This document shows positions 38,241 to 58,372 of a stretch of DNA of 64,000 nt, in pieces. A program made the position numbers and the translations under genes. How positions within the stretch are numbered: the stretch's first letter is position 1; every line of letters begins with the position of its first letter. The stretch covers positions 3,337,501-3,401,500 of the forward strand of contig NZ_CP098747.1 in the NCBI RefSeq assembly GCF_023746535.1, written 5' to 3'. Source of the stretch: Sneathiella marina (GTDB lineage: Bacteria; Pseudomonadota; Alphaproteobacteria; Sneathiellales; Sneathiellaceae). The notes beneath the pieces were generated by a model. That model saw nothing but the letters and a program-made list of their open reading frames with translations. It searched no databases and had not been told where the DNA came from.

Positions 38241-39446
38241 CTACTCTCCGTTTACAGCAAGAAATTCAGCAATTTTTTCATCAGCATACCCAAGGGACTT
38301 AAGAACCTCCGCGGTATGCTGACCGACCTGTGTCGGCGGTGCAACCTTAGTCATTGGGCTGTCTACATCGGCTATAAAAGGCGCACCGACTAGTCGTAGC
38401 GCATCCTCGAATCCTTGAATCTTACCGGTATCGATCATTATACCGCGATGTTCCAGTTGGGGATCCTTGACAGCTTCATGCAGTGTTCTAACTTCCTGAA
38501 CGGCTATGCCAGCTTCGTTCATGATTTGCAGCCACTCTTCGGTGGTTTTCACCTTCAAAGCATCACCAACCAACGCCAACCCGGATTCCAGGTTTGCCTG
38601 ACGAGCCTCAAATGTCGCGTAAAGCGGATCTTCGAGTAAATGCGCCAGACCAATCGCCTTGAGCACACTTTCATTCTGAGCAGAGGTAATAGTTGCAACC
38701 AGGATTTTCCCGTTCAGGGTATCGAAGCATCCGGCAGTAGGCTGCCGGGTTGGAGAATCGTTGCCGAGCAACGGCGGAATATTGCCGCGCACCATAAAGT
38801 CTGCCATTTGCGCCGCGGCCAACATAAGGGCGCTATCATACATGGCGACATCCAGATACTGCCCCTCTCCAGTGACATGGCGCCGGTTGATTGCCGACGA
38901 GACGGCAAACGCCGCATTAATTCCGGTGAACATGTCAATCACCATGATCCCGATGCGTGTTGGTCCGGTCTCTTCATGGCCGTTTAGTGTAAAAAGACCA
39001 GATGCCGCCTGAATGGCAGAATCATATGCCTTATCTCGACTTCTTGGTCCCTCCTGTCCGTATCCGCTAATTGAGCAATACACCAGATCAGGTTTGCGCT
39101 GTTTCAATGTTTCGTAATCAATCCCGAGTTTTTTGGCGACTCCGGGGCTGAAATTTTCGACAACAACATCAGCGTCCTCAACGAGTTTATAGGCTATCTC
39201 CCGCCCTGCTTCCGACTTCAAATCCAGCGCAAGGCTCTTCTTGCCCAGGTTGACCGTCAGAAAAGCCGGTGAAAGAAGCTTCGCCGCCATTTCGGGATCC
39301 GTCAAGGTTGTGCGCAATTGATCCCCTTTTTTCGGGGCTTCAATCTTAACAACATCCGCACCGAGCAGGGAAAACATCTGCGTACAGATCGGGCCTGCAA
39401 GAACCTGCGTAAAATCAACTACTTTTAGCTTTTCATAGGCACGCAT
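38241..39446 (-). CDS. CaiB/BaiF family CoA transferase (class III)
   Basis: The 401-residue enzyme should move CoA between carboxylic acids through an aspartyl-CoA anhydride. The N-terminal LKVVDFTQVLAGPICTQMFSLLGADVVKIE motif is typical, and Asp142 in KAYDSAIQA is the expected nucleophile. Its start overlaps the stop of the ADP-forming synthetase gene by one base (39446), so the two are coupled. As the last gene of the regulator-hydratase-AtuA-synthetase operon it probably activates or recycles the pathway's acid substrate, together with the synthetase. Confidence 0.9.
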   Translation of the reverse strand: MRAYEKLKVVDFTQVLAGPICTQMFSLLGADVVKIEAPKKGDQLRTTLTDPEMAAKLLSPAFLTVNLGKKSLALDLKSEAGREIAYKLVEDADVVVENFSPGVAKKLGIDYETLKQRKPDLVYCSISGYGQEGPRSRDKAYDSAIQAASGLFTLNGHEETGPTRIGIMVIDMFTGINAAFAVSSAINRRHVTGEGQYLDVAMYDSALMLAAAQMADFMVRGNIPPLLGNDSPTRQPTAGCFDTLNGKILVATITSAQNESVLKAIGLAHLLEDPLYATFEARQANLESGLALVGDALKVKTTEEWLQIMNEAGIAVQEVRTLHEAVKDPQLEHRGIMIDTGKIQGFEDALRLVGAPFIADVDSPMTKVAPPTQVGQHTAEVLKSLGYADEKIAEFLAVNGE

Positions 39447-41542
39447 CAGTTTTCCACTTTCGGTACGATCAAGGCATCGACGGCAACGGCGCCATTTGGA
39501 AGGACAATAAACGGGTTTACGTCAATGGTTTCAATGGTATCCGCGTTGGTTGCAGCAAAAACAGAGAGTTTCGATAATGCCTCTGCCAGTGCCTCTATAT
39601 CTGAAGGCGGAGCACCCCGCACACCATCCAGCATCGCCCGCCCCTGAATTTCATCAATCATTCGATGCGCTTCATCGACCCCAAACGGGGCAAGCCGGAA
39701 AGTCACATCCTTCAAAACTTCAACGAAAACACCGCCAAGACCAAACATGACCGCAGGGCCAAAAACAGGATCACAAACGACGCCCATAACGGTTTCGACA
39801 CCACCGGACACCATTTCAGCCACAATTACACCGTCAATTTTTGCGTCCGGCTTCGCTGTTTTAGCTCGCTCGATTAGAGTATCAAAGCCGGCAGCAACTT
39901 CCTCGGCAGTATCCAGGCTCAAGAGAACACCGCCAATCTCTGTTTTATGTAAAATATCCGGCGACGCGATTTTCATGACAACTTTTCCGCCAATTTTCTG
40001 CCAGACGGCCACTGCTTCCTCGCGGGATTGCACAAGTTCTTCCGTTGTTACCGGAACACCAATGCTGTTCAGCACTCGTTTTGCCTCATGTTCTGCAATT
40101 GGTGTGGTTGGCGCCGGCAGGGCTCCAGTTGGTAACGCAGGCGGCGCGTCCGGGCGGCCTCGCTCGAAAACCTCGCCGAAATGCATCAATGATGCCATAG
40201 CACGCACAGCAAGCGACGGATCCTCATAGCAGGGGATGCCGAGATCTTCATAGGTAGACACGACCTCATCCGGACCGATAATACTCATCATCATGATTTC
40301 ATCGGCGTATTTTTCGCGGATATTCGTGAAAATCTGCTTACAAATATCCTTCGTAAATGGAGAAGCCGGGACGCTGGCCATATAGACGATATGCGCATCG
40401 AAATCCGCTTCATCAATTGTCATGCTGATATTGGCTTCCATCAGGCTTGGATCGTTTAGAGCCTGGGCGGTAAAATCAACTGGGTTCGTCACCCCTGCGA
40501 AGGGGATAAGTTCCTTCAATTTCTTTTGTGTCGAAACCGGAAGCGGCGCAACGTCCAGTTCGTATTTAACAGAGGCATCCGCCATCTGCACGCCGACACC
40601 GCCGGAAATTGTTTGCAGATCGATCTTCCGTCCCGTCGGATATCGACCATATTGACAGGCATAGGCGACATCCACAAATTCTTCTGTCGTTTCCGCACGA
40701 TAGACGCCATATTGTTTAAACAAAGCATCATAGACCGCATCGGCCCCGGCAAGCGATGCCGTATGGGAAGCAGCTGCCTGTGCCCCCACATCCGTGCTGC
40801 CGACTTTCATGAAAATGACAGGCTTTTCCGCATCCCGCGCCATCTCCAGCGCTTTGCAGATCCGATCGGCATCTTTCATCCCCTCTGCATAGGCGAGGAT
40901 CACCTTGACGTCCGGCGCTTGTGCGTAAAACTCAATGACCTCGGCAACATCAACATCGGATTCGTTTCCAGTCGTAACCCAATAATTTGAGCCAACACCG
41001 CGCAACTGGGACACCATAAATACATGAGCGCCGTACGCACCACTCTGGCTGACGATCCCCATTGGTCCCGGTGGCAGGCGCAACATTCCCGGTGCATTGG
41101 TAAAGGTTCCGTACCAGCTTGCATCCACATTAAAGACACCCAGACAATTTGGGCCAATCAGCCGCATGCCGCTTTCCTTGGCAATACCGGTGATCTCACG
41201 CTGAGCTTTCGCGCCGTCGTCACTGAGTTCGGCGAATCCAGATGTAAACATCACGGCGCTTTTAACACCTTGATCGGCGCAATCACGAACCGATTGAACA
41301 GCAATTTTTGCAGGAACAGCGATAATCGCGCAATCAACTCCTTTGGGGACATCCTGAATTTTACCGAATGCAGGCAAATCCTGAATAGTTTCCCATTTCG
41401 GGTTTACTGGATAAATATCGCCTTTAAACCCTAAGGTTTTCATTGAATTGATCGGTCGGCCGCCAATGCGGGACGGCGTGTCTGACGCACCAATGATGGC
41501 TACAGATTTCGGCCTGAGCATGGCTTCAAGCGAATGGGTCAT
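39446..41542 (-). CDS. Acetate-CoA ligase family protein (ADP-forming acyl-CoA synthetase, alpha-beta fusion)
   Basis: The 698-residue protein fuses the alpha part (CoA-binding and CoA-ligase domains, about 1-460, with SVAIIGASDTPSRIGGRPI at the start and IVSQSGAYGAH in the middle) to the beta ATP-grasp part (about 480-698). Such enzymes convert acyl-CoA, ADP and phosphate to acid, CoA and ATP, or the reverse, through a phosphohistidine. The substrate here is probably the acid of the surrounding pathway. Its gene begins 34 bases after the end of the AtuA gene and overlaps the CoA transferase start. Confidence 0.9.
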   Translation of the reverse strand: MTHSLEAMLRPKSVAIIGASDTPSRIGGRPINSMKTLGFKGDIYPVNPKWETIQDLPAFGKIQDVPKGVDCAIIAVPAKIAVQSVRDCADQGVKSAVMFTSGFAELSDDGAKAQREITGIAKESGMRLIGPNCLGVFNVDASWYGTFTNAPGMLRLPPGPMGIVSQSGAYGAHVFMVSQLRGVGSNYWVTTGNESDVDVAEVIEFYAQAPDVKVILAYAEGMKDADRICKALEMARDAEKPVIFMKVGSTDVGAQAAASHTASLAGADAVYDALFKQYGVYRAETTEEFVDVAYACQYGRYPTGRKIDLQTISGGVGVQMADASVKYELDVAPLPVSTQKKLKELIPFAGVTNPVDFTAQALNDPSLMEANISMTIDEADFDAHIVYMASVPASPFTKDICKQIFTNIREKYADEIMMMSIIGPDEVVSTYEDLGIPCYEDPSLAVRAMASLMHFGEVFERGRPDAPPALPTGALPAPTTPIAEHEAKRVLNSIGVPVTTEELVQSREEAVAVWQKIGGKVVMKIASPDILHKTEIGGVLLSLDTAEEVAAGFDTLIERAKTAKPDAKIDGVIVAEMVSGGVETVMGVVCDPVFGPAVMFGLGGVFVEVLKDVTFRLAPFGVDEAHRMIDEIQGRAMLDGVRGAPPSDIEALAEALSKLSVFAATNADTIETIDVNPFIVLPNGAVAVDALIVPKVEN

Positions 41543-41576
41543 GGATTGCTTCCTTCTTATCCCTTTATATATGTAT

Positions 41577-43394
41577 TTATGTCAGGCTTTTGGCCAGAGA
41601 ACTAGGCACTTTTATGGGAAGTGCCAATAATTGCTGCGCATAGGTTTTCGCCAGATTATCCAGATGCAATGTCGACGTCCCGCCGCCGCCCAAACAGTCA
41701 GTCAGCAAGAAATTCACTGCTCCCATTCCCGGAAGATCAAATCGGGTAACGTCCCCTTCGATTACATGAGCGAACCATTCCTTTACCCGATCTTCTGAAG
41801 CGCTTTCCTTGATCCAGGGTAAATACGCTTCTGACCTGGCGATAACACCAACATTCGCATTGTTGCCCTTGTCGCCGCTGCGCGCAACTGCCAGAGAAAT
41901 AAGCGGAACGTCAACCAGTTCTTCATTAACCTCCGGCGGCTTGCCATCTCTGTTGGAGACCTGCTGCCTAATCTCACCGAATGTTTCGGGTACAGGCATT
42001 TCAAACCCGATATTCTTGTCGTTGACAAATACGTCAGTCTGGACGTCATTTTTATCGATCAGAAAAGCGAATTGCGCGACGACCGGGGTAATTTTTGGTC
42101 GGCCCGCCGCCCCTGCGGAACAGCGGCCCGTTGTCATGGAGAGACCAACGCCGGTTGTTTCCTTGGAGAAGAGCTCAAGAGCTGAACGTTCATCATGACG
42201 TACATCTATCTGCGTAATAATCTCGCGTGCCATCGGTGCCATCTGGTCAGCATTACCGCCCCAAAGTGTCTGGGCACCGATAATATGTGTCGCCGTATCC
42301 CGGTAGTCACCCAGGTTTCTTTCCATAAACAAGCGGCGGGTGCGTTTTATCAACGCGGCCGAAAAAGCTTCCCCTTTTTGAACCGCATCAAATCCGGTTA
42401 TTACCGTAGAAGCAGTCGATCGGTATCCATCCATATAAGTGCCGGATACTTTATACGTCGCCGTAGGTGCACCGCCTTTTACGCCGGTTATTTCCAGCCA
42501 GTCTTTTTTGGTTTCCGTCAATGTAACATCTGAAAAATCGCAAATAGCATCCGGCATCACATAAGCGGAAGGGTCACCGATTTCATAGAGAATTTGCTCT
42601 CCAACGGAAAATTTGGAGACGATACCACCGGTCTCATCAGGTTTCGTAATAGCAAAACTTCCATCAGCCCGACAAACGGCAATGGGATATCCCATGTCAT
42701 CCCAACCGCCCACAGTATCTTTCCAGTCCGTGAAATTACCGCCGGTTGCTTGCGCGCCGCATTCAAGAATGTGCCCGGCCAGGCTCCCCGAAGCCAGCTT
42801 GTCATAATCATCGGCGGACCAGCCAAATTCATGGATAAGCGGCCCCAGGGTAACAGCGCTGTCGACACAACGACCGGTAATCACGACTTCCGCGCCGGCA
42901 TCCAGCGCAGCCGCGATGGGAAAGGCTCCCAGATAAGCGTTAGCACTGATCATTTTTTCAGGCATCGCTTTGCCGGAGAACATTTCTGTTACATCCTGCC
43001 CCCGCAATTCTTCGATGCGGTCCGTAAGATTGTCGCCTTCAACGGTTCCTATGTTCAATGAAACACCGGCATCGCTGGCAACCTTGGCCAGCGCTGCAGC
43101 GCAGGCCGCAACATTTACACCGCCAGCATTTACGACGACTTTTATGCCGCGCGTTTTAATTTCACTGATAAGCGGCTTCATGACCAAGCCAATAAAATCC
43201 TTGGCATATCCTGCCTCCGGATCTTTTTGTTTTGCCCGCACGAGAATGGACATGGTGACTTCGGCAAGATAATCAAATACCAGGTAATCAACATTGCCCT
43301 TCATCACCAACTGACGGGGTGCTTCCTGAGAATCTCCCCAATATCCGGAGGCTCCACCGATGCGAACGGTCTTTGAGGGTTCTAAATTGCTCAT
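41577..43394 (-). CDS. atuA: Acyclic terpene utilisation AtuA family protein (DUF1446)
   Basis: The 605-residue protein starts with the DUF1446 domain (VRIGGASGYWGDS, DYLVFDYLAEVTMSIL, VVNAGGVNVAACA) and carries a C-terminal AtuA-like ferredoxin-fold domain (about 500-605, with LAVARSGDKGNNANVGVIAR). In Pseudomonas aeruginosa atuA belongs to the citronellol and geraniol degradation cluster, but its biochemical role is not established. It overlaps the upstream hydratase gene by 4 bases (ATGA). Its presence is the main marker that this region is an atu-like catabolic cluster. Confidence 0.9.
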   Translation of the reverse strand: MSNLEPSKTVRIGGASGYWGDSQEAPRQLVMKGNVDYLVFDYLAEVTMSILVRAKQKDPEAGYAKDFIGLVMKPLISEIKTRGIKVVVNAGGVNVAACAAALAKVASDAGVSLNIGTVEGDNLTDRIEELRGQDVTEMFSGKAMPEKMISANAYLGAFPIAAALDAGAEVVITGRCVDSAVTLGPLIHEFGWSADDYDKLASGSLAGHILECGAQATGGNFTDWKDTVGGWDDMGYPIAVCRADGSFAITKPDETGGIVSKFSVGEQILYEIGDPSAYVMPDAICDFSDVTLTETKKDWLEITGVKGGAPTATYKVSGTYMDGYRSTASTVITGFDAVQKGEAFSAALIKRTRRLFMERNLGDYRDTATHIIGAQTLWGGNADQMAPMAREIITQIDVRHDERSALELFSKETTGVGLSMTTGRCSAGAAGRPKITPVVAQFAFLIDKNDVQTDVFVNDKNIGFEMPVPETFGEIRQQVSNRDGKPPEVNEELVDVPLISLAVARSGDKGNNANVGVIARSEAYLPWIKESASEDRVKEWFAHVIEGDVTRFDLPGMGAVNFLLTDCLGGGGTSTLHLDNLAKTYAQQLLALPIKVPSSLAKSLT

Positions 43395-44218
43395 CGCTTC
43401 CCCCCTTCACCGGTTTCCTGCCAGGCAGGTTTTCTCTTTTCCGCAAAAGCAGATTGCCCTTCTTTTCCTTCGGCTCCCCGATTAAGAAGGGAGAATTTTT
43501 CAGCCGAAAACCGGATCATGTCTTCTTCCGGTACAGAGCCAACTTTCAACATAATGGCCTTGGTCGCAGCATTCGCCTTTGGTCCGCATTTCAGAACCTT
43601 GGCAACGACGTCTTCCAGGGTAGTGTCGATCGTATCGTCCCGGCACAGATATTGTGCAATGCCATATTCATACGCTTTGTCGCCGCCGAACCTCTCTGCG
43701 GTTAACGCCAATTGGCGTGCACGGGTAAGGCCAATTCGTTTCACCACATACGGGGCGATTTGGGCGGGTGCAACGCCAAGTGTGGTTTCCGGCATGCCCA
43801 TTTTTGCGGTTTCCGATACGATTGTGATATCTGCAAGGCATGCATATCCCATACCGCCACCAAAGGCGGATCCTTCTACAACGGCGATAGTGGTCTGCGG
43901 CAGATTTTCAAACCGCAAAAAAGCCATGCCGGCCCCACGGTTTCTTTCCATAATTGGATCACTGTCTTCGGTAACGACATCTTCCGCCATATTTCGGCGC
44001 TCTTTTATATCGCCGCCTGCACAAAAATGCCCGCCTGCTCCGCGCAAGATTACCACACGCACTTCGTCTGAATTTGACAACCATTCAACAACGGCAGCAA
44101 ACTCTTCACCCATCTGGCTATTGATTGCATTTCGCTGGTCAGGTCGATTAAAGGTGAGATTTAACCTTGGTCCCTGCACATCCAAAAGCAGAAACTCACA
44201 TTTTGGTAGATCCGGCAT
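43391..44218 (-). CDS. Enoyl-CoA hydratase family protein, AtuE/LiuC-like
   Basis: The 275-residue crotonase has the oxyanion-hole segments FCAGGDIKE (65-73) and SAFGGGMGYACLAD (117-130). The first catalytic Glu of classical crotonases is replaced by Gly124, but Glu144 in MPETTLGV is kept. A similar loss of one Glu occurs in isohexenylglutaconyl- or methylglutaconyl-type and other crotonases, so hydration of a branched substrate is possible but not certain. The gene lies between the TetR regulator and atuA in one operon, matching the role of AtuE in hydrating the carboxylated terpenoid CoA. Confidence 0.82.
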   Translation of the reverse strand: MPDLPKCEFLLLDVQGPRLNLTFNRPDQRNAINSQMGEEFAAVVEWLSNSDEVRVVILRGAGGHFCAGGDIKERRNMAEDVVTEDSDPIMERNRGAGMAFLRFENLPQTTIAVVEGSAFGGGMGYACLADITIVSETAKMGMPETTLGVAPAQIAPYVVKRIGLTRARQLALTAERFGGDKAYEYGIAQYLCRDDTIDTTLEDVVAKVLKCGPKANAATKAIMLKVGSVPEEDMIRFSAEKFSLLNRGAEGKEGQSAFAEKRKPAWQETGEGGKR

Positions 44219-44252
44219 TTTATGCTCTTTCTTTTTAATTTGGCCGACAAAA

Positions 44253-44885
44253 TTATAATGCGGTCAGATATTGCTTAAACATATCCTTAAACCGCTCTAT
44301 TTGGGGAGAAAGTTTTTCACTATCCCCGGCAATAATTCTTGTCAAAGCCAATCCACGGAAGGTGATCATCAGCGTTGACCGCCAGGATACGATTTCCTCC
44401 AGGTCCCGGCCAGTATCGGCGAATATTTCCTGCCAAGTCAGCGCGCGTTTTCGCTCCAGCTCATCTAGCGCGGATGTTATTGCAGCGCTAAATTCCGGAT
44501 CATTTCGACCTCTCATGGTAATCTCCATAAAGGCAGTATAGGCTTCTCCCTGAAATCCCCGCCAATACTCGTCAAAAACCCGATCCAGCCTTTCCTGTAA
44601 CGGCAGCTGTTTAAGCTGTTCGGTATTCAGATGCTCGACGAGCCGTGCCGCGATCTCATTGATACTGGCCACCAGAAGAGATTTCGGGCTATCAAAATGG
44701 TACTGTATGGCGCCGCGGGTCATGCCGGCTTCGCGGGCGACATCTTGTGTCGTGAGTTGAGAGGCCCCTTTATTGTGCAGCAGCTTTATTGCGGCATCCA
44801 CGAGCTTCGTCCGGGTTTCTATGCGCCGCTCCTCCTGCCGTTTTCTCCCTGTGCTATTTGACTCAGCCACTGTTGCCATCAGCAT
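44253..44885 (-). CDS. TetR/AcrR family regulator (AtuR-like position)
   Basis: The 210-residue protein has an N-terminal TetR DNA-binding domain (about 20-65) with a recognition segment TQDVAREAGMTRGAIQYHFDSPKSL and a C-terminal ligand domain. AGGA precedes the ATG at 44885. It is the first gene of the minus-strand operon and lies 75 bases from the operator-like palindrome at 44960-44981, so it probably represses itself and the divergent dehydrogenase operon. A second copy of the operator at 55328-55359 would extend its control to the carboxylase and thiolase operons. An acyl-CoA intermediate is the likely inducer. Confidence 0.88.
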   Translation of the reverse strand: MLMATVAESNSTGRKRQEERRIETRTKLVDAAIKLLHNKGASQLTTQDVAREAGMTRGAIQYHFDSPKSLLVASINEIAARLVEHLNTEQLKQLPLQERLDRVFDEYWRGFQGEAYTAFMEITMRGRNDPEFSAAITSALDELERKRALTWQEIFADTGRDLEEIVSWRSTLMITFRGLALTRIIAGDSEKLSPQIERFKDMFKQYLTAL

Positions 44886-44954
44886 CTATTCCTATGTAAA
44901 AATTGGTCTGCCATTGTCTGGCGAGAACCGGAAATATAGATCGCTCAAATTATC

Positions 44955-44986
44955 ATTTGTAACATTCATTCATGAATGTTAGTATT
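44955..44986. promoter_or_regulatory. Operator site 1 of the TetR regulon
   Basis: A perfect palindrome, TAACATTCAT at 44960-44969 and ATGAATGTTA at 44972-44981, surrounds two bases between the divergent TetR and acyl-CoA dehydrogenase genes. The 32-base window matches the reverse complement of 55328-55359 at 29 positions. Size, symmetry and position fit a TetR-family operator. Confidence 0.75.
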
Positions 44987-45068
44987 TTCCCAACAAAAAG
45001 ACAATCCAAATATACGATATGCTGAACTCATTTAGCACATCCGCTGGGCCAGAAGGTGGAAAATTAGC

Positions 45069-46214
45069 ATGCAATTCACCCAAGAACACCGTGAGCTGTC
45101 AGACAGTCTCAAAAAATTTATCGACGCTGAAATCAACCCTTATGTAGATGAATGGGAAGAGGCGGAAATGTTTCCGGCCCATGACCTCTTCAAAAAAATG
45201 GGAAATATGGGATTTCTCGGAATCAGCAAACCGGCAGAATTCGGCGGCAGCGGATTGGATTATTCGTACGAAGCAGTCTCCTCTGAAGCACTCGGGTATA
45301 TAAATTGCGGCGGTGTCGCCATGGGGATCGGCGTTCAAAGCAATATGGCGACCCCCGCTCTCGCCCAACATGGCTCCGATGCGTTGCGCCGAGAGTTTCT
45401 AGTTCCGGCCCTGCAAGGAGACATGGTCGCCTGCATCGGTGTGACGGAAGCAGAAGCCGGATCCGATGTCGCCAGTTTACGAACCAATGCTCGTAAGGAT
45501 GGCGATGACTACGTGATAAACGGCTCAAAAATGTACATTACAAATGGGCTGCAAGCGGACTGGGTCTGCTGCCTTGCCAATACGGGAGATGGCCCTGCCC
45601 ATAAGAACAAGACCCTGATCATCATACCCATGGATAGTCCTGGAATAACAAAACACAAAATAAGAAAAATCGGCATGATGTCGTCTGATACGGCGCAACT
45701 TTTCTTTGACGATGTCCGCGTTCCCCAAAGCAACAGAATAGGTGAAGAGGGACGAGGATTTATTTACCAAATGCAGCAGTTCCAGGAAGAAAGGCTGTTT
45801 GCTGCTGCCCGTGGCCCGCGTGTCATGGAAGAGGCCATCAACGAGACCATTGAATATACGCGGCAGCGAAAAGCCTTTGGTAAGTCCATTCTTGATAATC
45901 AGGTTGTAAATTATCGGCTGGCGGAGCTGCAGACAGAAGTCGAGGCGCTACGTGCCCTCACCTATCATGCGGTCGAAAGATATGTCGCCGGTGAAGATGT
46001 CACCAAACTGGCGTCCATGGCGAAACTCAAGGTCGGCCGTTTGCAGCGGGAGGTAATGGATAGCTGTCTTCAGTATTGGGGAGGACAGGGTTATGTCTGG
46101 GAATCGTCCATTTCCCGAAGATTTCGAGACTTCCGTTTAACTTCAATTGGTGGGGGCGCTGATGAAGTCATGTTGAAAGTCATCACGAAATTGATGGGAA
46201 TATCTCCCTCATGA
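45069..46214 (+). CDS. Acyl-CoA dehydrogenase, AtuD (citronellyl-CoA dehydrogenase)-like
   Basis: The 381-residue flavoenzyme has the FAD-binding CIGVTEAEAGSDVASLRT (122-139) and MYITNG segments. A candidate catalytic base is Glu241 in QEERLF, the position used in isovaleryl-CoA dehydrogenases rather than the C-terminal position of short-chain enzymes. This fits branched or long substrates. The N-terminal INPYVDEWEEAEMFPAHDLFKKMG stretch resembles citronellyl-CoA dehydrogenase AtuD as I recall it. GGTGG lies about 10 bases upstream. It is the first gene of the plus-strand operon behind operator site 1. Confidence 0.85.
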   Translation: MQFTQEHRELSDSLKKFIDAEINPYVDEWEEAEMFPAHDLFKKMGNMGFLGISKPAEFGGSGLDYSYEAVSSEALGYINCGGVAMGIGVQSNMATPALAQHGSDALRREFLVPALQGDMVACIGVTEAEAGSDVASLRTNARKDGDDYVINGSKMYITNGLQADWVCCLANTGDGPAHKNKTLIIIPMDSPGITKHKIRKIGMMSSDTAQLFFDDVRVPQSNRIGEEGRGFIYQMQQFQEERLFAAARGPRVMEEAINETIEYTRQRKAFGKSILDNQVVNYRLAELQTEVEALRALTYHAVERYVAGEDVTKLASMAKLKVGRLQREVMDSCLQYWGGQGYVWESSISRRFRDFRLTSIGGGADEVMLKVITKLMGISPS

Positions 46215-46251
46215 TGCGGCATCCGTATCCAAAAGAATAAAGGCCCGAAAC

Positions 46252-47466
46252 ATGGACTTAACCGATCGCACGGAACATCTCGCCTTTCGCCAGGAAGTCC
46301 GTCAGTTTCTGGATAAACATAAGGCGACGGCACCTGAAGAAACCGCGCATTCTTTCCGGTTATCTCCGCGACCCTATACCGATACTGTCAAAGCCTGGCA
46401 AAAACTGCTTGTCAAAAATGGATATGCCGGTCGGACCGTACCAAAAGCCTATGGCGGCTATGGAGCAGAGCCTGACATTCTTAAAAACCGAATTATTGCC
46501 GACGAATTTTTCGCTGCTGACATACCGCAAGGGCTTTATAGTCAGGGCATTTCCATGCTCGTGCCCACACTTCTTGAGCACGGAACGGAAGAACAAAAGA
46601 AAACCTGGATTGGCCCGACAATTCGGGGGGATGTCATGTGGTGCCAGGGCTACTCGGAGCCAAATTCGGGATCTGATCTAGCCAGCCTGCAAACGAGCGC
46701 GATCGAGGACGGTGACGATTTTCTGATTAACGGGTCAAAGATCTGGACATCATCTGCACATATTACACCCATGATTTTCTGCCTCGTTCGGACAGAGCCT
46801 GATGCCTCCAAATATCAGGGGATCAGCTATCTGATTTTCCCAATGGATACACCGGGGATTGACGTGCGGCCCTTACAAACAATGACGGGGCACCCGTCCT
46901 TCAACGAAGTCTTCTTCACGGATGTTCGGGTCCCAAAAAACGCAGTAGTTGGTGGTCGGGGAAATGGGTGGAAAGTCGCCAATAGTACGCTTAAGCATGA
47001 GCGGGGCATGCTCTCAAACGCCAATGGCTCGCTGGAACGCCTGAACAAGATTTCTACGCTGCTCAAGAAGGAAATGCTGGACGGACGCCCGCTTTGGGAA
47101 AATAAAAATCTGACAGACCGGTTCGTCTCCCTGCAGGCTCGGGTTCAAGCTATGCGGTTTCATGAAATGCGGCTTTTGACACGCACCAAGGATGGCAAGG
47201 CTCCCGGACTTGGAGATATGATCTGCAAGCTTTTAGGCTGCGAATTAAACCACCAACTCGACGCACTCGCCATTGATGCCCTTGGTGAAATCGGCGTTCT
47301 TTATGATGGTATCCCTTCAGCGAAGGAAGATGGCATCTGGCAGCAATGGTATATGTATGATCTCGGCCTCATAATCGGTGGCGGCACAGCACAAATCCAA
47401 AAAAACATCATCGCGGAGCGGGGACTGGACATGCCGCGGGAACCGCGCCATCAGAAAGGTTCGTAA
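46252..47466 (+). CDS. Acyl-CoA dehydrogenase, probable catalytic subunit of a two-subunit enzyme
   Basis: The 404-residue protein has the FAD-binding CQGYSEPNSGSDLASLQT segment (131-148) and Glu250 in KHERGML, which aligns with the base of isovaleryl-type dehydrogenases. The C-terminal position of short-chain enzymes reads GGGTAQ, with no Glu. The next gene, one base away, encodes another dehydrogenase-fold protein that lacks both possible bases. This arrangement is like the alpha/beta acyl-CoA dehydrogenases of steroid side-chain degradation (ChsE type). Confidence 0.85.
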   Translation: MDLTDRTEHLAFRQEVRQFLDKHKATAPEETAHSFRLSPRPYTDTVKAWQKLLVKNGYAGRTVPKAYGGYGAEPDILKNRIIADEFFAADIPQGLYSQGISMLVPTLLEHGTEEQKKTWIGPTIRGDVMWCQGYSEPNSGSDLASLQTSAIEDGDDFLINGSKIWTSSAHITPMIFCLVRTEPDASKYQGISYLIFPMDTPGIDVRPLQTMTGHPSFNEVFFTDVRVPKNAVVGGRGNGWKVANSTLKHERGMLSNANGSLERLNKISTLLKKEMLDGRPLWENKNLTDRFVSLQARVQAMRFHEMRLLTRTKDGKAPGLGDMICKLLGCELNHQLDALAIDALGEIGVLYDGIPSAKEDGIWQQWYMYDLGLIIGGGTAQIQKNIIAERGLDMPREPRHQKGS

Positions 47467-47467
47467 C

Positions 47468-48553
47468 ATGTATTTCGGTCTTTCTGACGAACAGCTCATG
47501 ATACAGAACAGCTTTCGGGGCTCCCTGGAACGCAATGTAACACTGGATAGTATCCGCCGGATTAGTACGGGCGATGAGCCTTTTGACGGCGCTCTTTGGC
47601 AAGAACTGTCCGGGCTTGGCATGACCGCGCTTTTGATTCCGGAACAATATGGCGGTGCAGCTCTTGGTCTGATAGAGGCGGTTGTTGTCGCGGAAGAGCT
47701 TGGAAAAAGCGCCGCGCCTGTACCGTTTGTCGGAACAGCAGTTGTTGCGCCATTGGCGATCATGCTGATGGCTGATGAGACCCAGAAATCTGAATGGTTG
47801 CCCAGACTTGCCGACGGATCCGTCCGGATCGGTGTCGCCATTTCCGAGTTGGCCAGTGGTGCGCGGCGAGGTTCAGGCCTGACAGAGGAAAACGGGACTC
47901 TTACTGGCACGGCGTCTTTTGTGATAGATGCCGCCGGCGCTGATGCCTTTGTCGTTGCTGATCGCCAGCAAGGATTTCATCTGGTCGGCGCGGATTCACC
48001 CGGATTGGAAATCATCCATTCTCCCACCATCGATGGGACCCGCCCGATCGCTGAGCTGAAGTTTCAAAATGTGCAGGCATCCGGGCTTCCACAGACGACG
48101 TCTGACAAAATCGACAGAGTGCTCAATGCCGGTCGGATCATCCTGGCCGCGGAAAGCTTCGGCGCCGGACAGGAAATGTTGCGGCAAGCCGTGGCCTACG
48201 CAAAGGATCGCAAGCAATTTGACCGGGCAATCGGATCCTTCCAGGCTGTCAAACATATGTGCGCGGAAATGGCCGCGGAACTTCAACCCTGTCAGGCATT
48301 GATATGGTATGCCGCCTACGCCTTCGACGTTATGTCAGATGATGCAGAGCTATCCGGGTTGCTTGCAAAATCACAAATGGACGATGTCGGCCGCTTTGTT
48401 GCGCGTACCGCAACCGAGGTCCATGGCGGGATGGGATATACAGACCTGATGGGCCTGCATTTCTGGTTTAAACGCATCGGTTTTAACCGGGCAACATGGG
48501 GAGCGCCGGAAAAACTACGCGCCGATGCCGCCCGACTGCAAGGGCTGGGCTAG
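47468..48553 (+). CDS. Acyl-CoA dehydrogenase-like protein, probable non-catalytic partner subunit
   Basis: The 361-residue protein keeps the acyl-CoA dehydrogenase fold, including AYAKDRKQFDRAIGSFQAVKH, but the isovaleryl-type base position is Gly222 (AGRIILAA) and the C-terminal position is Trp in the RATWGAPE segment. The FAD-binding motif is also divergent (ISELASGARRG). It begins at the ATG at 47468, one base after the previous stop; a frame back to 47378 overlaps that gene. It most likely pairs with the 46252 protein in a heterotetramer. Confidence 0.85.
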   Translation: MYFGLSDEQLMIQNSFRGSLERNVTLDSIRRISTGDEPFDGALWQELSGLGMTALLIPEQYGGAALGLIEAVVVAEELGKSAAPVPFVGTAVVAPLAIMLMADETQKSEWLPRLADGSVRIGVAISELASGARRGSGLTEENGTLTGTASFVIDAAGADAFVVADRQQGFHLVGADSPGLEIIHSPTIDGTRPIAELKFQNVQASGLPQTTSDKIDRVLNAGRIILAAESFGAGQEMLRQAVAYAKDRKQFDRAIGSFQAVKHMCAEMAAELQPCQALIWYAAYAFDVMSDDAELSGLLAKSQMDDVGRFVARTATEVHGGMGYTDLMGLHFWFKRIGFNRATWGAPEKLRADAARLQGLG

Positions 48554-48560
48554 TTAAACT

Positions 48561-51421
<2,861 letters not shown>

Positions 51422-51450
51422 CCGTCTTCTCCTACCTTTACTCTATCGGC

Positions 51451-53442
51451 TTATTCTGCCGCTTCTATTTCGATCAAAAAATCGTCTATGGCAACCTGTT
51501 GGGAAGCGAGTGCCGCTACCTCGCTCACCACACCATCGATATCGGCCAGAATATCATGCTGCATTTTCATGGCTTCTAAAACAGCCAAACGATCCCCTGC
51601 ATTAACATCATCGCCGGCCTGCACGAAAACCTCCAGCAAGGTGCCATGCATCGGTGCGACAATCCTGCCGTTCCCCGCCGCGATTTCAGCATTTTGCGCA
51701 AAAGCGATCGAATTACGGAAATGATGGGTAACGCCATGCTCCGAAATTTCAAGAACATTATCTGTAGATCCATCATAATGAACGCGGCGGCGCCTGTCAT
51801 TTACAGTCAGTGTGGCCGTATCATTTGTGATGGAAACAAGGTCAATGAGGATGACGGTATCCCCTAAACGTACTTCGTAAGAGCCATCCCGCATCGGAGA
51901 GACAGTCAGATCAATTGTTTCTTCACCCCAACTATAGATATACCGGGTCAGCAAGCTTCCGCCACTGGACCAATCTTGCAACTGAGGGCTTCCAAAAATC
52001 GCCTTGGTCCGTACTTTCTCCCGCTCGCAATGATACTGTATAACGGCGGCCGTAGCCGCTTGTTCTGGCGCCGGAAGATCGATTTTTAGATCCTCATCGG
52101 AAAATTCCTGTGCGATAAAGGCCGTTGTTGCCGACCCTTCTGCAAAACTGTCTTTTGACAACACATCTATCAAGAACCCGCGATTGGTTGTCAGGCCAAA
52201 TAAGACCGTTTCCTTGAGCGCATCGATTAACCTATGCCGGGCTATTTCTCTTGTTTCACCATATGTTACCACTTTGGCAATCATCGGGTCGTAGAATGGC
52301 GAAATATCCTGCCCCGCCTCTATACCACTATCAAAGCGGACTCCCGCTCCCGCCGCCGGTATCCATTTCGAAATCGTCCCAGTGCAAGGTAGAAAGTCCT
52401 GCGCTGTGTCCTCAGCGTAAAGGCGCACCTCAATAGCATGCCCGGTCAGTTCAATATCCGATTGTTCCAGCCCAAGCAAACCGCCTTCCGCTACTTTAAT
52501 TTGCAGAGCCACCAGATCAAGACCGGTGATAAGTTCGGTTACCGGATGCTCCACTTGCAGGCGCGTATTCATTTCCAGAAAATAGAAATTTCCACCGCTA
52601 TCGAGTAAAAACTCAACGGTTCCAGCGCCCCGATACTGAATGCTCCGTGCTGCCTCCACGGCGGCGGCCCCCATTTTCTCGCGCAATTCTGCTGTCATTA
52701 TCGGACAGGGAGCTTCCTCAACCACTTTCTGATGGCGCCGCTGGACGGAGCAGTCGCGTTCGCCAAGATGAATAACGTTACCATGGCTGTCTGCGAACAC
52801 CTGGACTTCCACATGCCGCGGCTCAAGAATTGCTTTTTCCAGAATTAACTCATCGGAGCCGAAAGCGTTTAGAGCCTCAGACCTTGCAGAGGCCAACGCG
52901 TCCGTCAGGTCCGCAGCGTCCCTCACCAGACGCATCCCGCGGCCACCACCACCTGCCGCAGCTTTTACCATGATCGGGAAGCCGATAGTCTTCGACGCTG
53001 CAATCAAGGTATCGTCCGATTGATCCGCATCTTCATACCCCGGAACGCAGGGTACATTAGCCGCAATCATTCGGCGTTTTGCAGCTGCCTTATTGCCCAT
53101 CAAGTCTATGGAGTCAGCTGTGGGTCCTATGAACACGAGGTCCGCAGCGTCGCAGGCACGGGCAAATTCCGCGTTCTCCGACAGGAACCCGTAGCCGGGA
53201 TGGATTGCTTCAGCCCCGCTTTCCTTCGCCGCTTTCAGAATCCGATCCATATCAAGATAAGATTGCCCGACCGGAGACGGCCCGATATGTACCGCATCAT
53301 CGGCCATTTTCACATGTGGCGCGTCCGCATCCGCATCGGAATAAACAGCAATGGTTTTATAGCCGAGACTTTGCGCCGTCCGCATGACACGGACGGCAAT
53401 TTCCCCGCGATTGGCAACTAATATGTTCTGGAAGTTTCTCAT
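51451..53442 (-). CDS. Acyl-CoA carboxylase alpha subunit (geranyl-/methylcrotonyl-CoA type, AtuF/LiuD-like)
   Basis: The 663-residue protein combines biotin carboxylase (1-445: GGGGRGM glycine loop, EMNTRLQVEHPVTE), a linker BT domain and a biotin carboxyl carrier domain with the biotinyl Lys626 in EAMKM. It uses bicarbonate and ATP to charge biotin for the beta subunit encoded just upstream. Its size fits geranyl-CoA, methylcrotonyl-CoA and propionyl-CoA carboxylases alike; association with AtuA makes geranyl-CoA-type activity plausible. It lies 52 bases after the beta subunit gene. Confidence 0.88.
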   Translation of the reverse strand: MRNFQNILVANRGEIAVRVMRTAQSLGYKTIAVYSDADADAPHVKMADDAVHIGPSPVGQSYLDMDRILKAAKESGAEAIHPGYGFLSENAEFARACDAADLVFIGPTADSIDLMGNKAAAKRRMIAANVPCVPGYEDADQSDDTLIAASKTIGFPIMVKAAAGGGGRGMRLVRDAADLTDALASARSEALNAFGSDELILEKAILEPRHVEVQVFADSHGNVIHLGERDCSVQRRHQKVVEEAPCPIMTAELREKMGAAAVEAARSIQYRGAGTVEFLLDSGGNFYFLEMNTRLQVEHPVTELITGLDLVALQIKVAEGGLLGLEQSDIELTGHAIEVRLYAEDTAQDFLPCTGTISKWIPAAGAGVRFDSGIEAGQDISPFYDPMIAKVVTYGETREIARHRLIDALKETVLFGLTTNRGFLIDVLSKDSFAEGSATTAFIAQEFSDEDLKIDLPAPEQAATAAVIQYHCEREKVRTKAIFGSPQLQDWSSGGSLLTRYIYSWGEETIDLTVSPMRDGSYEVRLGDTVILIDLVSITNDTATLTVNDRRRRVHYDGSTDNVLEISEHGVTHHFRNSIAFAQNAEIAAGNGRIVAPMHGTLLEVFVQAGDDVNAGDRLAVLEAMKMQHDILADIDGVVSEVAALASQQVAIDDFLIEIEAAE

Positions 53443-53494
53443 TTTTCTCTAACCTGCAAATTTGGTTCTTTTATTTTTATTTCGCTCAATATCC

Positions 53495-55117
53495 CTACAG
53501 TCTGGCGACACCAAAACTGTTTGGATGCAGGGTTCGATTGCGCGCCTCCCAGCATGTTTGCAAAGCAAATCCCAATACCTTTCGGGAATCCCTTGGATCA
53601 ATGACACCCTGATCAAGCAACCGGCCGGACGTATAAAAGGCATCTGCCTGGCTATCAAAATGATGTATGAGCCTCGCTTTTTGAGCAGCGAAGGCCTCTT
53701 CATCAACGTCCTGACCTTTACGCTCCGCAACTCCGCGCGCCACCTGCTCCATGGTTGTCGCCGCCTGCTCTCCGCCCATTACGCCGGTTTGAGCGTTTGG
53801 CCAGGCAAAAAGAAAATCTGGCTCATACGCAAAGCCCCCCATTCCGTAGTTTCCAGCGCCGAAGCTCGCACCGATGTAAAGCGTAAGCTTTGGCACCCGG
53901 ACATTGGCGACCGCCTGGATCATTTTGGAGCCATGCTTGATCATGCCACGCTGTTCATATTCTTTACCGACCATATATCCGGTAATATTATTGAGGAAAA
54001 TAATCGGAATATCCGCTTGGTCGCAAAGCTGGAAGAATTGCCCTCCTTTCGCGGCACTGTCCGGATCAATGGGTCCATTATTACCGACAATACCGACGGC
54101 ATGACCATAGATACTTGCCTGCAGACAGACGAGAGTTGATCCGTAACGAGGTTTGAATTCGTCAAATTCCGAGCCATCCACCAGTCGGGCGACAACTTCA
54201 CGGACATCATAGGGTTTCCGGTAATCCACCGGAACGACACCGGCAATTTCATCCGGATCGTAAATAGGCTCTTCGAAGGTCTCTATGGTCGGCCGGGCAC
54301 AGTTCTTATTCCAGTCAAGCCGTCCAACGATATCCCGGGCGATTAATAATCCGTGCGCGTCATCTTCTGCCAAATACTCAACCAAGCCGGTAGTCGTCGC
54401 ATGCATTTCTGACCCGGCTAATTCTTCTTCATCGGAAATTTCTCCCGTGGCCGCCCGCACAAGCGCCGCGCCGCCTAAAGATGCCCGGCCGCGTCCCTTA
54501 ATACCAATGACGTAATCGCTCATGCCGGGCAGATAGGCCCCGCCCGCGGTCGACGGCCCGTGCAAAACAACGAATGTCGGTATGCCCGCAGCGCTCAGTT
54601 TGGCCAGACGTTGAAATCCACCGCCACCCCATGCCCAGGATTCCACCTGATATTTCAGCAGATTCGCCCCGGCACTTTCAACCAGGTGAACGAAGGGCAG
54701 CTTTTTATCAATGGCTATGTCCTGACAGTTACGCAGCTTCTCACCGGATTTCTGCGTCATGGCTCCCGCATTAATTCCGCTATCACTGGCGCATATCATA
54801 CATCGAACGCCATTGATAAATCCAATGCCCGTTATGGAACTGGCGCCGGGAATACTTTTTTCCCGATCATCCGTATCCACCATATAATTTGCCAGCCCAA
54901 ACAACTCCAGAAAGGGCATTCCAGGATCCAGTAAACGCACAACACGCTCCCGCGGCGTCAGTTGCCCGCGCTGTTCGAATATGGGACGACGGCGTTCCGA
55001 TAGATCCCTGGCTCTGTCCTTTAGGGCGTGAAGGTCGTCTATCAGAGACAACATCTCTTGCCGGTTCGTAACATAAGAATCGGAAGTCGATACAATCTTG
55101 GACGTAAAGGCAGTCAT
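53495..55117 (-). CDS. Acyl-CoA carboxylase beta subunit (geranyl-/methylcrotonyl-CoA type, AtuC/LiuB-like)
   Basis: The 540-residue carboxyltransferase has the N-terminal crotonase-like domain with FVHLVESAGANLL and HGPSTAGGAYLPGMSDYVIG. The C-terminal domain contains GNNGPIDPDSAAKGGQFFQLCDQ and IGASFGAGNYGMGGFAYEPDFLFAWPNA. The GAYLPGMSD and SFGAGNYGM motifs place it with methylcrotonyl-CoA and geranyl-CoA carboxylases rather than propionyl-CoA carboxylases. Choosing between the two needs the substrate-pocket residues. It is the first gene of the minus-strand operon behind operator site 2. Confidence 0.88.
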   Translation of the reverse strand: MTAFTSKIVSTSDSYVTNRQEMLSLIDDLHALKDRARDLSERRRPIFEQRGQLTPRERVVRLLDPGMPFLELFGLANYMVDTDDREKSIPGASSITGIGFINGVRCMICASDSGINAGAMTQKSGEKLRNCQDIAIDKKLPFVHLVESAGANLLKYQVESWAWGGGGFQRLAKLSAAGIPTFVVLHGPSTAGGAYLPGMSDYVIGIKGRGRASLGGAALVRAATGEISDEEELAGSEMHATTTGLVEYLAEDDAHGLLIARDIVGRLDWNKNCARPTIETFEEPIYDPDEIAGVVPVDYRKPYDVREVVARLVDGSEFDEFKPRYGSTLVCLQASIYGHAVGIVGNNGPIDPDSAAKGGQFFQLCDQADIPIIFLNNITGYMVGKEYEQRGMIKHGSKMIQAVANVRVPKLTLYIGASFGAGNYGMGGFAYEPDFLFAWPNAQTGVMGGEQAATTMEQVARGVAERKGQDVDEEAFAAQKARLIHHFDSQADAFYTSGRLLDQGVIDPRDSRKVLGFALQTCWEARNRTLHPNSFGVARL

Positions 55118-55593: not shown

Positions 55594-57063
55594 ATGGAAG
55601 TAGGAATATTGGCCTATGGTGGATACATTCCCCAAAGCCGATTACAGCGTAGCGAAATTGCGAAAGCACATAGCTGGTTTAATCCCGGATTAAATGGCCT
55701 CGCGAAAGGTGAGCGGGCGATGGCGAACTGGGACGAAGACAGTGTGACTATGGCTGTTGAAGCGGCGCGCGACTGTTTAGGAGATATGGATCGCGATGCG
55801 ATTTCCGCCGTCTATATGGCCTCAACCTCTTTTCCCTTCAACGATCGACAAAATGCCGGGATCGTCGCCGACGCCCTGAATTTAAAATCCGGACTTCAAA
55901 CCATGGATTTTTCGTCCTCGCAACGGGCCGGCAGTGCTGGCCTCTCGCTGGCCCTGCACGTCGCCAAGGGAAGTAGTGAACCGGTTCTTTACACGACAGC
56001 CGAGAAACGCGAAACCCGCGCAGCCAGCCCGTTGGAATTCACCTCTGGTGATGGTGCTGCAGCCTTCCTCGTTGGTCAGGGCAAGGTGATTGCAAAATTG
56101 CTTGCCAGCCATACCGAGGCCGTGGACTTCGTCGACCATTTTCGCGGTGAAGGTGAAGCCTATGACTATAGTTGGGAAGAACGTTGGGTCCGTGATGAGG
56201 GCTATTTGAAAATAGTTCCCGCAGCGATCGCCTCCGTGCTGGAACAAAGTGACGTCGACCCCTCCTCAATTACAACTTTTTGTTTTCCTGTGGCCGCGAA
56301 GCGTATTGCTGCAACTCTGGCGAAACAAATGGGTTTTCCCGAAACCTCTGTTGCTGACAATCTGCAAGCCAATTGCGGAGAAACCGGCACAGCCCATTCG
56401 ATGGTCATGCTGGCGCAGGCGCTTCAGAACAGTAAACCCGGTGACAAAATTCTGGTCGCGAGTTTCGGACAAGGCAGTGATGCACTATTGTTCGAAGTTA
56501 CTGATGAAATCGCCAATTTAGCCCCGCGTATGGGCATCACCGGGTATCTCGCCCGTCGTTACGCCGAATCAAACTACAATAAATTTCTGGCCTTTCACGA
56601 TCTGATCAATCTCGAGCGGGGCATTCGCGCTGAGACCGATAAGAAAACCGGTCTGACCACATTGTACCGTAACAAGAATATGGCGCAACGGATGCTGGGC
56701 GGAAAATGTACCCAATGCGGTACAGCTCAGTTTCCGAAAAGCAATATGTGCGTAAACGAGAATTGCGGCGCCGTCCATACGCAAGAAGACTATCCGTTCG
56801 CGGATCGAATTGCCCGCGTCAATTCCTTCACCGCCGACCGGCTTACCTATTCACCGGACCCACCGGCATATTATGGTATGGTCCAGTTTGAAGAGGGCGG
56901 ACGGCTAATGAGCGATTTTACGGATATTTCGCCTGAGTCGGATGTTGAAGTCGGTATGGCGATGCGCATGGTGTTCCGTGTGAAAGATTACGACAACAAG
57001 CGTGGATTTAGACGCTATTTCTGGAAAGCGACTCCCGTAGCCGCTGCACAAAAAGGAGAATAA
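55594..57063 (+). CDS. HMG-CoA synthase-like (thiolase superfamily) protein fused to a DUF35 zinc-ribbon/OB-fold domain
   Basis: Residues 1-330 have the fold of archaeal-type HMG-CoA synthases: GILAYGGYIP at the start, a VYMAS strand, TTAEKRE and SGDGAAAFLVG. Residues 350-489 form a DUF35 domain with zinc-ribbon cysteines (CTQC and CVNENC) and an OB-fold. The synthase triad is absent: Glu becomes Thr78, the nucleophilic Cys becomes Gln110 (QRAGS) and His becomes Cys230 (TFCFP). It therefore cannot work as an ordinary HMG-CoA synthase. In archaea separate HMGCS, DUF35 and thiolase proteins form a channelling complex; here two are fused and the thiolase gene follows by 2 bases. AAGGAG precedes the ATG. 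Confidence 0.85.
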   Translation: MEVGILAYGGYIPQSRLQRSEIAKAHSWFNPGLNGLAKGERAMANWDEDSVTMAVEAARDCLGDMDRDAISAVYMASTSFPFNDRQNAGIVADALNLKSGLQTMDFSSSQRAGSAGLSLALHVAKGSSEPVLYTTAEKRETRAASPLEFTSGDGAAAFLVGQGKVIAKLLASHTEAVDFVDHFRGEGEAYDYSWEERWVRDEGYLKIVPAAIASVLEQSDVDPSSITTFCFPVAAKRIAATLAKQMGFPETSVADNLQANCGETGTAHSMVMLAQALQNSKPGDKILVASFGQGSDALLFEVTDEIANLAPRMGITGYLARRYAESNYNKFLAFHDLINLERGIRAETDKKTGLTTLYRNKNMAQRMLGGKCTQCGTAQFPKSNMCVNENCGAVHTQEDYPFADRIARVNSFTADRLTYSPDPPAYYGMVQFEEGGRLMSDFTDISPESDVEVGMAMRMVFRVKDYDNKRGFRRYFWKATPVAAAQKGE

Positions 57064-57065
57064 CA

Positions 57066-58271
57066 ATGGCCTCAGGAATTAAAGATAAAGTAGCTATTCT
57101 TGGTATGGGGTGCTCGCGCTTTGGTGAACGGTGGAATGACAATGCTGAGGATCTTATGATCGAGGCGTTCATTGAAGCCCTCGAGGATGCCGGCATTGAG
57201 AAAAGCTCAATTGATGCAGCCTGGTTCGGAACCGGTATTGAAGAAGAGCATGTGGGCAAATCGGCTGTACCGCTATCAATGGCGCTGCGCCTGCCGAATA
57301 TCCCTGTCACCCGCGTGGAAAACTATTGCGCCAGTGGATCAGAAGCTTTTCGGGGAGCCGTTTATGCCGTTGCGTCCGGTGCCTGCGATATCGCCCTGGC
57401 GCTTGGCGTGGAGAAACTAAAAGACACCGGTTATGGCGGCCTGCCACAACGCAACCGGGGCTCCGTAAACGACATGTTCTGGGCCAACGCATCAGCTCCT
57501 GGCTCCTTCGCTCAACTTGCGACTGCGTATTCCGCTAAGCATGGTGTCAGCAAGGAAGACATGAAAAAAGCCATGGCTCATATTTCCGTCAAAAGCCATG
57601 ATAACGGATCGCGAAATCCGAAGGCTCACCTGCGCAACCAGATAAACGAAGAAAAAGTCATGAATGCGCCGATGATTGCCGAGCCTCTGGGCCTTTTCGA
57701 TTGTTGCGGTGTTAGTGACGGCTCCGCCTGTGCCATCGTAACAACGCCTGAAATTGCCAAGGCTCTTGGCAAGAAGGATTTGATCACCGTCAAGGCAATG
57801 CAGCTTTCTGCGTCCAACGGTCGCGAGGCCCAGCATAATTCATGGGATGGCAGCCATTTCGTGACAACACGTGCCGCCGCGAACCGGGCCTATAAGGAAG
57901 CTGGAATTACAAAGCCTCGGGATCAAGTTAGCCTGTTCGAGGTCCATGACTGTTTTTCAATCACAGAGCTGGTGACAATGGAGGACCTGTTCATTTCCGA
58001 CGAAGGACAAGCCGTAAATGACATTATGAATGGCTTCTTCGACGCCGATGGTGAAATTCCATGTCAGATTGACGGCGGGCTCAAATGCTTCGGCCATCCC
58101 ATCGGAGCGTCCGGTTTGCGAATGATCTACGAGATGTATCTGCAGATGAACGGACGCGCCGGTGATCGACAACGGAGCGAAGAACCGGTGTTCGGAATGA
58201 CCCATAATCTTGGGGGCTTCCCTCACCAGAATGTTTGCTCACTGACAATCGTTGGAAAAGAGGGCGCCTGA
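57066..58271 (+). CDS. Thiolase family protein (SCP-x / archaeal acetyl-CoA acetyltransferase type)
   Basis: The 401-residue protein keeps the thiolase catalytic residues: Cys88 in ENYCASGSEA, the HDCFSITE motif, His344 in GHPIGASG and Cys391 in NVCSLTIVG. It is therefore probably an active thiolase, unlike the retro-aldolase Ltp2 relatives that lost the nucleophile. SCP-x and archaeal thiolases of this branch act with DUF35 proteins, which fits the fused partner encoded directly upstream. It would release acetyl-CoA or propionyl-CoA from a beta-ketoacyl-CoA. A strong terminator follows. Confidence 0.9.
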   Translation: MASGIKDKVAILGMGCSRFGERWNDNAEDLMIEAFIEALEDAGIEKSSIDAAWFGTGIEEEHVGKSAVPLSMALRLPNIPVTRVENYCASGSEAFRGAVYAVASGACDIALALGVEKLKDTGYGGLPQRNRGSVNDMFWANASAPGSFAQLATAYSAKHGVSKEDMKKAMAHISVKSHDNGSRNPKAHLRNQINEEKVMNAPMIAEPLGLFDCCGVSDGSACAIVTTPEIAKALGKKDLITVKAMQLSASNGREAQHNSWDGSHFVTTRAAANRAYKEAGITKPRDQVSLFEVHDCFSITELVTMEDLFISDEGQAVNDIMNGFFDADGEIPCQIDGGLKCFGHPIGASGLRMIYEMYLQMNGRAGDRQRSEEPVFGMTHNLGGFPHQNVCSLTIVGKEGA

Positions 58272-58301: not shown

Positions 58302-58330
58302 CCAACCGGCATTTGCCGGTTGGTTTGTTT
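58302..58330 (+). terminator. Intrinsic terminator after the thiolase gene
   Basis: CCAACCGGC and GCCGGTTGG form a perfect 9-base stem around ATTT (58302-58323), followed by TTTGTTTT. It ends the HMGCS-like/thiolase unit, so the next crotonase gene needs its own promoter or read-through. Confidence 0.85.
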
Positions 58331-58372
58331 TAAGGCAGAGTTTAATTAAATAAAAAAAAGAGGGAGGACGAT

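Follow-up and report, generated by a model that had tools for sequence, protein, structure and literature searches.

The HMG-CoA-synthase-like/DUF35 fusion protein encoded in the 64,000-nucleotide stretch of the Sneathiella marina genome analyzed here (the window) has, by alignment, lost the catalytic triad of its synthase part together with the rest of its family. It is probably a noncatalytic partner that completes the thiolase encoded directly downstream, and this thiolase would thiolyze bulky or branched 3-oxoacyl-CoA in a degradation pathway. All three components (thiolase, DUF35, and synthase-like) are encoded side by side at this locus. An earlier note made from the same DNA had given the reading frames, the fused architecture, and the 2-base gap to the thiolase, all of which were confirmed. 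The features are as follows.

55594..57063, + strand: HMG-CoA-synthase-like/DUF35 fusion, 489 amino acids, with Thr78/Gln110/Pro232 in the catalytic columns

55594..56613, + strand: HMG-CoA-synthase-like domain, residues ~1 to 340; model residues 1 to 339 superposed on 6esq_I with Z 44.1, rmsd 2.1, and 334 aligned

56653..57063, + strand: DUF35 part of the fusion, zinc ribbon and OB fold (PF12172, PF01796)

57066..58271, + strand: SCP2-type thiolase, 401 amino acids, with Cys88, His294-Asp-Cys296-Phe, and His344; 2-base gap after the fusion

58302..58333, + strand: terminator-like hairpin of 9 pairs with a T-rich tail, 3′ of the thiolase

The hairpin past the thiolase suggests that the two genes may form an operon of their own; the count of terminator-like sites across the region is not significant (6 observed versus 6.1 expected from shuffles). 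The top profiles for the fusion are those of archaeal-type HMG-CoA synthase, all under their cutoffs (TIGR00748, 153.1 versus 353.35 bits; NF003274, 214.3 versus 244 bits). The protein has the fold of this enzyme family and lacks both its catalytic residues and a score at the level of the curated families.

Alignment to the archaeal chain 6esq_I placed Thr78 at Glu82, Gln110 at Cys114, and Pro232 at His238. Glu82 and Cys114 are named as catalytic residues of the archaeal synthase (PMC6392133), and we read His238 from the alignment as the probable catalytic histidine. The column assignments derive from sequence alignments and are backed by the structural match. The replacements of Glu by Thr78 and of Cys by Gln110 claimed in the earlier note therefore lie at catalytic columns, but its third replacement, of His by Cys230, was assigned to the wrong column. 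Position 230 is a cysteine in only 48 of 98 distinct fusions (Ile in 22, Val in 21, Ala in 6, and Ser in 1), while Pro232 is kept in 85. These 98 sequences comprise the window, 17 from more varied plasmid records, and 80 from genome contigs, the last being the best of at least 543 candidates, so that the sample leans toward close relatives. Glu at column 78 and Cys at column 110 occur in none of the 98, and His at column 232 occurs in three (the Sphingopyxis, Halostagnicola, and Halostella fusions), which argues that the loss of the triad is not due to chance. As a positive control, 6ESQ and the Methylobacterium, Melissococcus, and Streptomyces records annotated as HMG-CoA synthase all carry Glu, Cys, and His in the same columns.

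A shifted active site was rejected: within 4 columns of the old sites, Glu is absent and Cys appears in at most 1 of the 98 fusions, and the His that 55 of 98 have at position 228, four columns ahead of the His site, is located on the predicted strand leading up to that site. Sequencing error or gene decay was likewise rejected, because the family is conserved and under purifying selection (dN of 0.10 to 0.14 for the fusion and 0.04 to 0.05 for the thiolase against five Sneathiella-type loci, with dS at or near saturation). The earlier note had also raised a decarboxylase resembling KS-Q domains, in line with the Gln that occupies the cysteine column in 80 of 98 fusions, the window's among them. 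This Gln is not fixed, the column being occupied by Arg, Leu, Ala, Thr, Pro, Gly, or Met in 17 others and by a gap in one. KS-Q enzymes rely on histidines, and His stands at column 232 in just 3 of 98, with Pro in the window. We therefore regard a KS-Q-like decarboxylase as extremely improbable.

Another reading is that the synthase-like pocket has gained a new activity, for example, acyl-CoA hydrolysis or decarboxylation, and hands its product to the thiolase. Several polar residues of the synthase part are indeed kept (Thr78 in 94 of 98, Arg111 in 91%, His268 in 90 of 98, and Glu195 and Arg197 each in at least 91%); these could mean new chemistry, which counts against a partner role. The purifying selection on the pair fits a new activity and a partner role alike. 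However, the old site has no conserved replacement Glu or Cys nearby, Gln110 is variable, and His268 is missing from eight fusions (four actinobacterial, three haloarchaeal, and one from Novosphingobium). In addition, the inactive precedent PhlA is described as standing outside the acyl transfer (PMC6392133). A new activity is accordingly an improbable alternative to the role of noncatalytic partner.

The fusion was modeled from a 31-row alignment with a mean pLDDT of 86.7 and a pTM of 0.90. In the model, the synthase-like and DUF35 parts are joined by a low-confidence linker, with pLDDT below 50 at residues 344 to 351. The best structural match is 6ESQ (Z 44.1), followed by PhlA of two acyltransferases (5M3K and 9SKH; Z 40.6 to 42.0) and MucABC of Streptococcus macacae (Z 39.5 to 39.7), and other HMG-CoA synthases rank lower (Z of at most 36.2). 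The top matches are all synthase-type subunits of thiolase/DUF35/synthase complexes. The family profile of the fusion also matches the DUF35 chains 6esq_E (2.7e-19) and PhlB. The zinc ribbon of the DUF35 part is built on Cys372, Cys375, Cys386, and Cys391 of the fusion. The spacing of its second knuckle is C-x4-C in the window's fusion, as in most of the proteobacterial members shown, and C-x2-C in actinobacterial, haloarchaeal, and a few other members; in the alignment, one or more of the four cysteines are missing from 5 of 98 fusions.

Of 289 genomes drawn from the host's class, 50 contain a full-length match (host included; counted by hand) and 65 a match of any kind at an E value of 0.001. 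A genome collection yielded at least 543 confirmed candidates. The best 80 of these are labeled as alpha-, beta-, and gammaproteobacteria, Acidobacteria, Rokubacteria, and others, including many metagenome bins, and the closest named relatives among them belong to Sneathiella (84% identity). Fusions from Actinomycetota and haloarchaea were added from plasmid records. Gene pairing was counted across the window and 88 fetched loci, 89 in all. A thiolase follows the fusion on the same strand in 85 of them, directly in 82 and at 1.0 to 3.3 kb in three (L089, L109, and L114), where other sequence intervenes. In the remaining four, the contig stops 2 to 219 bases past the fusion, and thus every locus with room (85 of 85) has the thiolase. 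Thr/Gln/Pro stands in the three catalytic columns of 76 of the 98 fusions. The intervening sequence at the three loci is a point against a partner role. Three annotated haloarchaeal records have the thiolase upstream of the fusion. Two genomes of the host's class carry split sets, with thiolase, synthase-like, and DUF35 proteins encoded in this order by separate genes (L133, 5587 to 8186; L134, 5702 to 8306), and their synthase-like proteins also lack the triad.

Phylogenetic analysis of 54 rows, including 4 active synthases and 2 PhlA-like rows, placed the 42 bacterial fusions in one clade (99/96). Together with 4 haloarchaeal fusions and the 2 split forms, they make up a 48-row clade (99/99) that stands apart from the PhlA-like rows and the active synthases and in which no member has the Glu or Cys. 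L126 and L129 sit on long branches. The support bearing on a single triad loss shared with PhlA is 88/71.

The thiolase scores 696.8 bits against NF004810 (PRK06157 family; cutoff, 403) and carries the Cys, HDCF, and His residues of an SCP2-type thiolase, from which its activity is predicted. It also matches the 7yvy and 6esq_A chains and has its motifs in common with the 6ESQ thiolase; the HDCF motif is present in SCP-2 thiolases (PMC12329534). All 19 aligned thiolases, the window's among them and two from the split sets, carry Cys88, His294-Asp-Cys296-Phe, and His344 without change. The catalytic Cys88 and His344 proposed in the earlier note thus stand, but its Cys391 does not, as the second cysteine is Cys296 of the HDCF motif. 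Position 391 is poorly conserved: of 30 rows, among which the window's thiolase appears twice, three end early, and the 27 that reach the column have Cys (15), Ser (10), or Ala (2). In an alignment with the archaeal thiolase, the latter ends ahead of this position, with no matching Cys. A thiolase model from the single sequence was poor (mean pLDDT, 35.0). In the related CsATase, changing Cys88 of PhlC to Ser abolished activity (PMC12955522). The host genome holds a second pair of DUF35 and thiolase-fold genes at ~3.128 Mb (L136, 8094 to 9661); read by eye, this partner has YDSF where HDCF is expected and no cysteine at the nucleophile position.

Genes of acyl-CoA metabolism are frequent beside the pair. 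At 58 of the 70 loci of at least 12 kb, one or more of the probed gene families lie within 6 kb, by raw counts with no chance control: acyl-CoA dehydrogenase in 34, SDR in 33, crotonase in 31, ligase in 25, MaoC in 18, CaiB in 15, and carboxylase and OYE in 7 each. The gene sets differ from locus to locus. The pair in the window neighbors a carboxylase pair, a ligase, acyl-CoA dehydrogenases, crotonases, and an AtuA-family gene (PF07287). Positions 38241 to 55117 encode the AtuA-family protein, a crotonase, a CoA-transferase, a succinyl-CoA-ligase-like acyl-CoA ligase, three acyl-CoA dehydrogenases, an OYE-type flavoprotein, and a biotin carboxylase/carboxyltransferase pair, possibly a cluster for acyclic terpenoid use. 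Carboxylase linkage was rejected as a general feature, since five of its seven loci are the window and its Sneathiella relatives. The same region of this proteobacterium encodes a protein of the TIGR03084/mycothiol-maleylpyruvate-isomerase N-terminal type (50627 to 51421), which also adjoins the carboxylase in L035, L036, L038, and L042, with a weaker match in L052. The listed GTG start of the open reading frame at 48561 to 50699 overlaps the gene at 50627, and an internal ATG is the likelier start.

In the earlier note, mevalonate synthesis was judged unnecessary in this host on account of ispG, which is present in the window (PF04551). This view is supported by the lack of an HMG-CoA reductase match in the host genome, the control having matched in 5 of 14 genomes, and a mevalonate role for the fusion was rejected on the same ground. 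The note had further suggested a retro-aldol enzyme that stands in for HMG-CoA lyase in terpenoid breakdown, and the nearby AtuA-family gene and biotin carboxylase/carboxyltransferase pair would suit such a function. The host, however, encodes a canonical HMG-CoA lyase at 2832770 to 2833663 (NF004283, 433 bits; cutoff, 246), with a carboxyltransferase match ~3 kb away at 2836535, and hence needs no substitute. The fusion also lacks the catalytic Glu and Cys, and a carboxylase lies within 6 kb of the pair in just 7 of the 70 longer loci. Replacement of the lyase is therefore very unlikely.

Among the three hypotheses of the earlier note, the scaffold or partner function fits best, because the triad is lost family-wide, the thiolase lies 3′ in 85 of 85 loci, and the nearest structures are subunits of complexes. 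The PhlA precedent likewise favors the partner part of that idea; the scaffold in its pure form, in which the fusion merely stabilizes the thiolase and contacts neither CoA nor substrate, we rate lower and consider unlikely. For PhlACB, PhlA and PhlB were suggested to be necessary for a properly folded complex, in keeping with a pure scaffold, while the continuous cavity of PhlACB and the binding of CoA by residues from all three proteins of the archaeal complex argue against it (PMC6392133).

In the noncatalytic-partner model, the DUF35 part would dock the thiolase, by analogy with PhlACB and ChsH2, and the synthase-like part would pack against the thiolase in a physical complex, the two together forming a cavity for CoA and the acyl chain. 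As expected from the family, Cys88 would be the nucleophile carrying the acyl-enzyme and Cys296 the acid/base, with His294 and His344 beside them, and acetyl-CoA or propionyl-CoA would be released. Our guess is that the substrate is a 3-oxoacyl-CoA derived from an acyclic terpene. We propose, more tentatively, that this large family of fused pseudo-synthase/DUF35 proteins of bacteria and haloarchaea lends its old active-site pocket to the thiolase as an acyl-binding annex, allowing one type of thiolase to cut bulky 3-oxoacyl-CoAs, a possibility that falls somewhat short of an even chance and, if true, would account for the HMG-CoA synthase without an assigned role in estrogen degradation. Relatives are recorded as hydroxymethylglutaryl-CoA synthase, 3-oxoacyl-ACP synthase III C-terminal domain protein, OB-fold protein, or hypothetical protein, although the residues needed to make HMG-CoA are missing from them. 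Their recognition as thiolase partners would correct these annotations. A literature search with sparse coverage of subscription papers returned no paper naming this fusion.

The archaeal acetoacetyl-CoA thiolase/DUF35/HMG-CoA synthase complex (6ESQ) has the same three components, the best structural match, and the thiolase motifs. Its synthase differs in keeping Glu82, Cys114, and the His at 238 and in serving the mevalonate pathway (PMC6392133), whereas the window protein has Thr/Gln/Pro, is fused, and belongs to a host without HMG-CoA reductase. PhlACB (5M3K and 9SKH) likewise brings together an inactive synthase-like subunit (PhlA, which lacks the catalytic Cys and Glu), a DUF35 protein, and a thiolase-fold partner that is active. 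A single cavity runs through A, B, and C, the ligand is contacted by PhlC residues only, and the whole operon must be expressed for a functional enzyme (PMC6392133). PhlACB is, in contrast, encoded by separate genes and performs a biosynthetic, CoA-independent acyl transfer, while the window has a fused DUF35, an HDCF thiolase, and catabolic-looking neighbors; in the tree, the two PhlA-like rows used, PhlA and one Priestia relative, group with each other (100/99) outside the 48-row clade.

In the steroid systems ChsH1-ChsH2-Ltp2 and Shy-Sal, DUF35 also links a second domain to a thiolase-fold degradation enzyme (PMC11321319, PMC12329534). In ChsH2, a MaoC domain that lacks catalytic residues and holds the steroid rings is joined to a DUF35 domain, which binds the aldolase (PMC11321319). 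The second domain there is of the MaoC type rather than synthase-like, and the aldolase partner carries YDHF or YDCY, as opposed to HDCF and Cys88 in the window's thiolase. The DUF35 domain seemed unimportant for aldolase or hydratase activity in these systems (PMC11321319), which counts against a partner role for the fusion. In acetone degraders, a DUF35 protein is described near acetyl-CoA acetyltransferases, with no synthase mentioned in the portions of that report available (PMC8084838).

The edc estrogen degradation cluster of Novosphingobium tardaugens contains an HMG-CoA-synthase homolog beside a thiolase (EGO55_13555/EGO55_13550), a likeness drawn through the gene order of Novosphingobium sp. 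ES2-1 (L126). There, a fusion and a thiolase lie among P450, VOC proteins, indolepyruvate oxidoreductase, and beta-oxidation-type genes, in the order of operon OpA of the edc cluster apart from one extra small open reading frame (PMC7793797). The authors of that study could not place the homolog and stated that the pathway has no sensible use for a condensation; they assigned it to a separate group and proposed a different activity, for example, that of a thiolase (PMC7793797). The terms "DUF35" and "active site" are absent from the main text of PMC7793797. The ES2-1 fusion, on its long branch, is 32.6% identical to that of the window and has Thr/Leu/Ser at the triad columns, and its thiolase has the full residue set, which points to this fusion being a partner rather than an enzyme. 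The partner role thereby offers a testable function for a gene to which the estrogen pathway study assigned none (PMC7793797).
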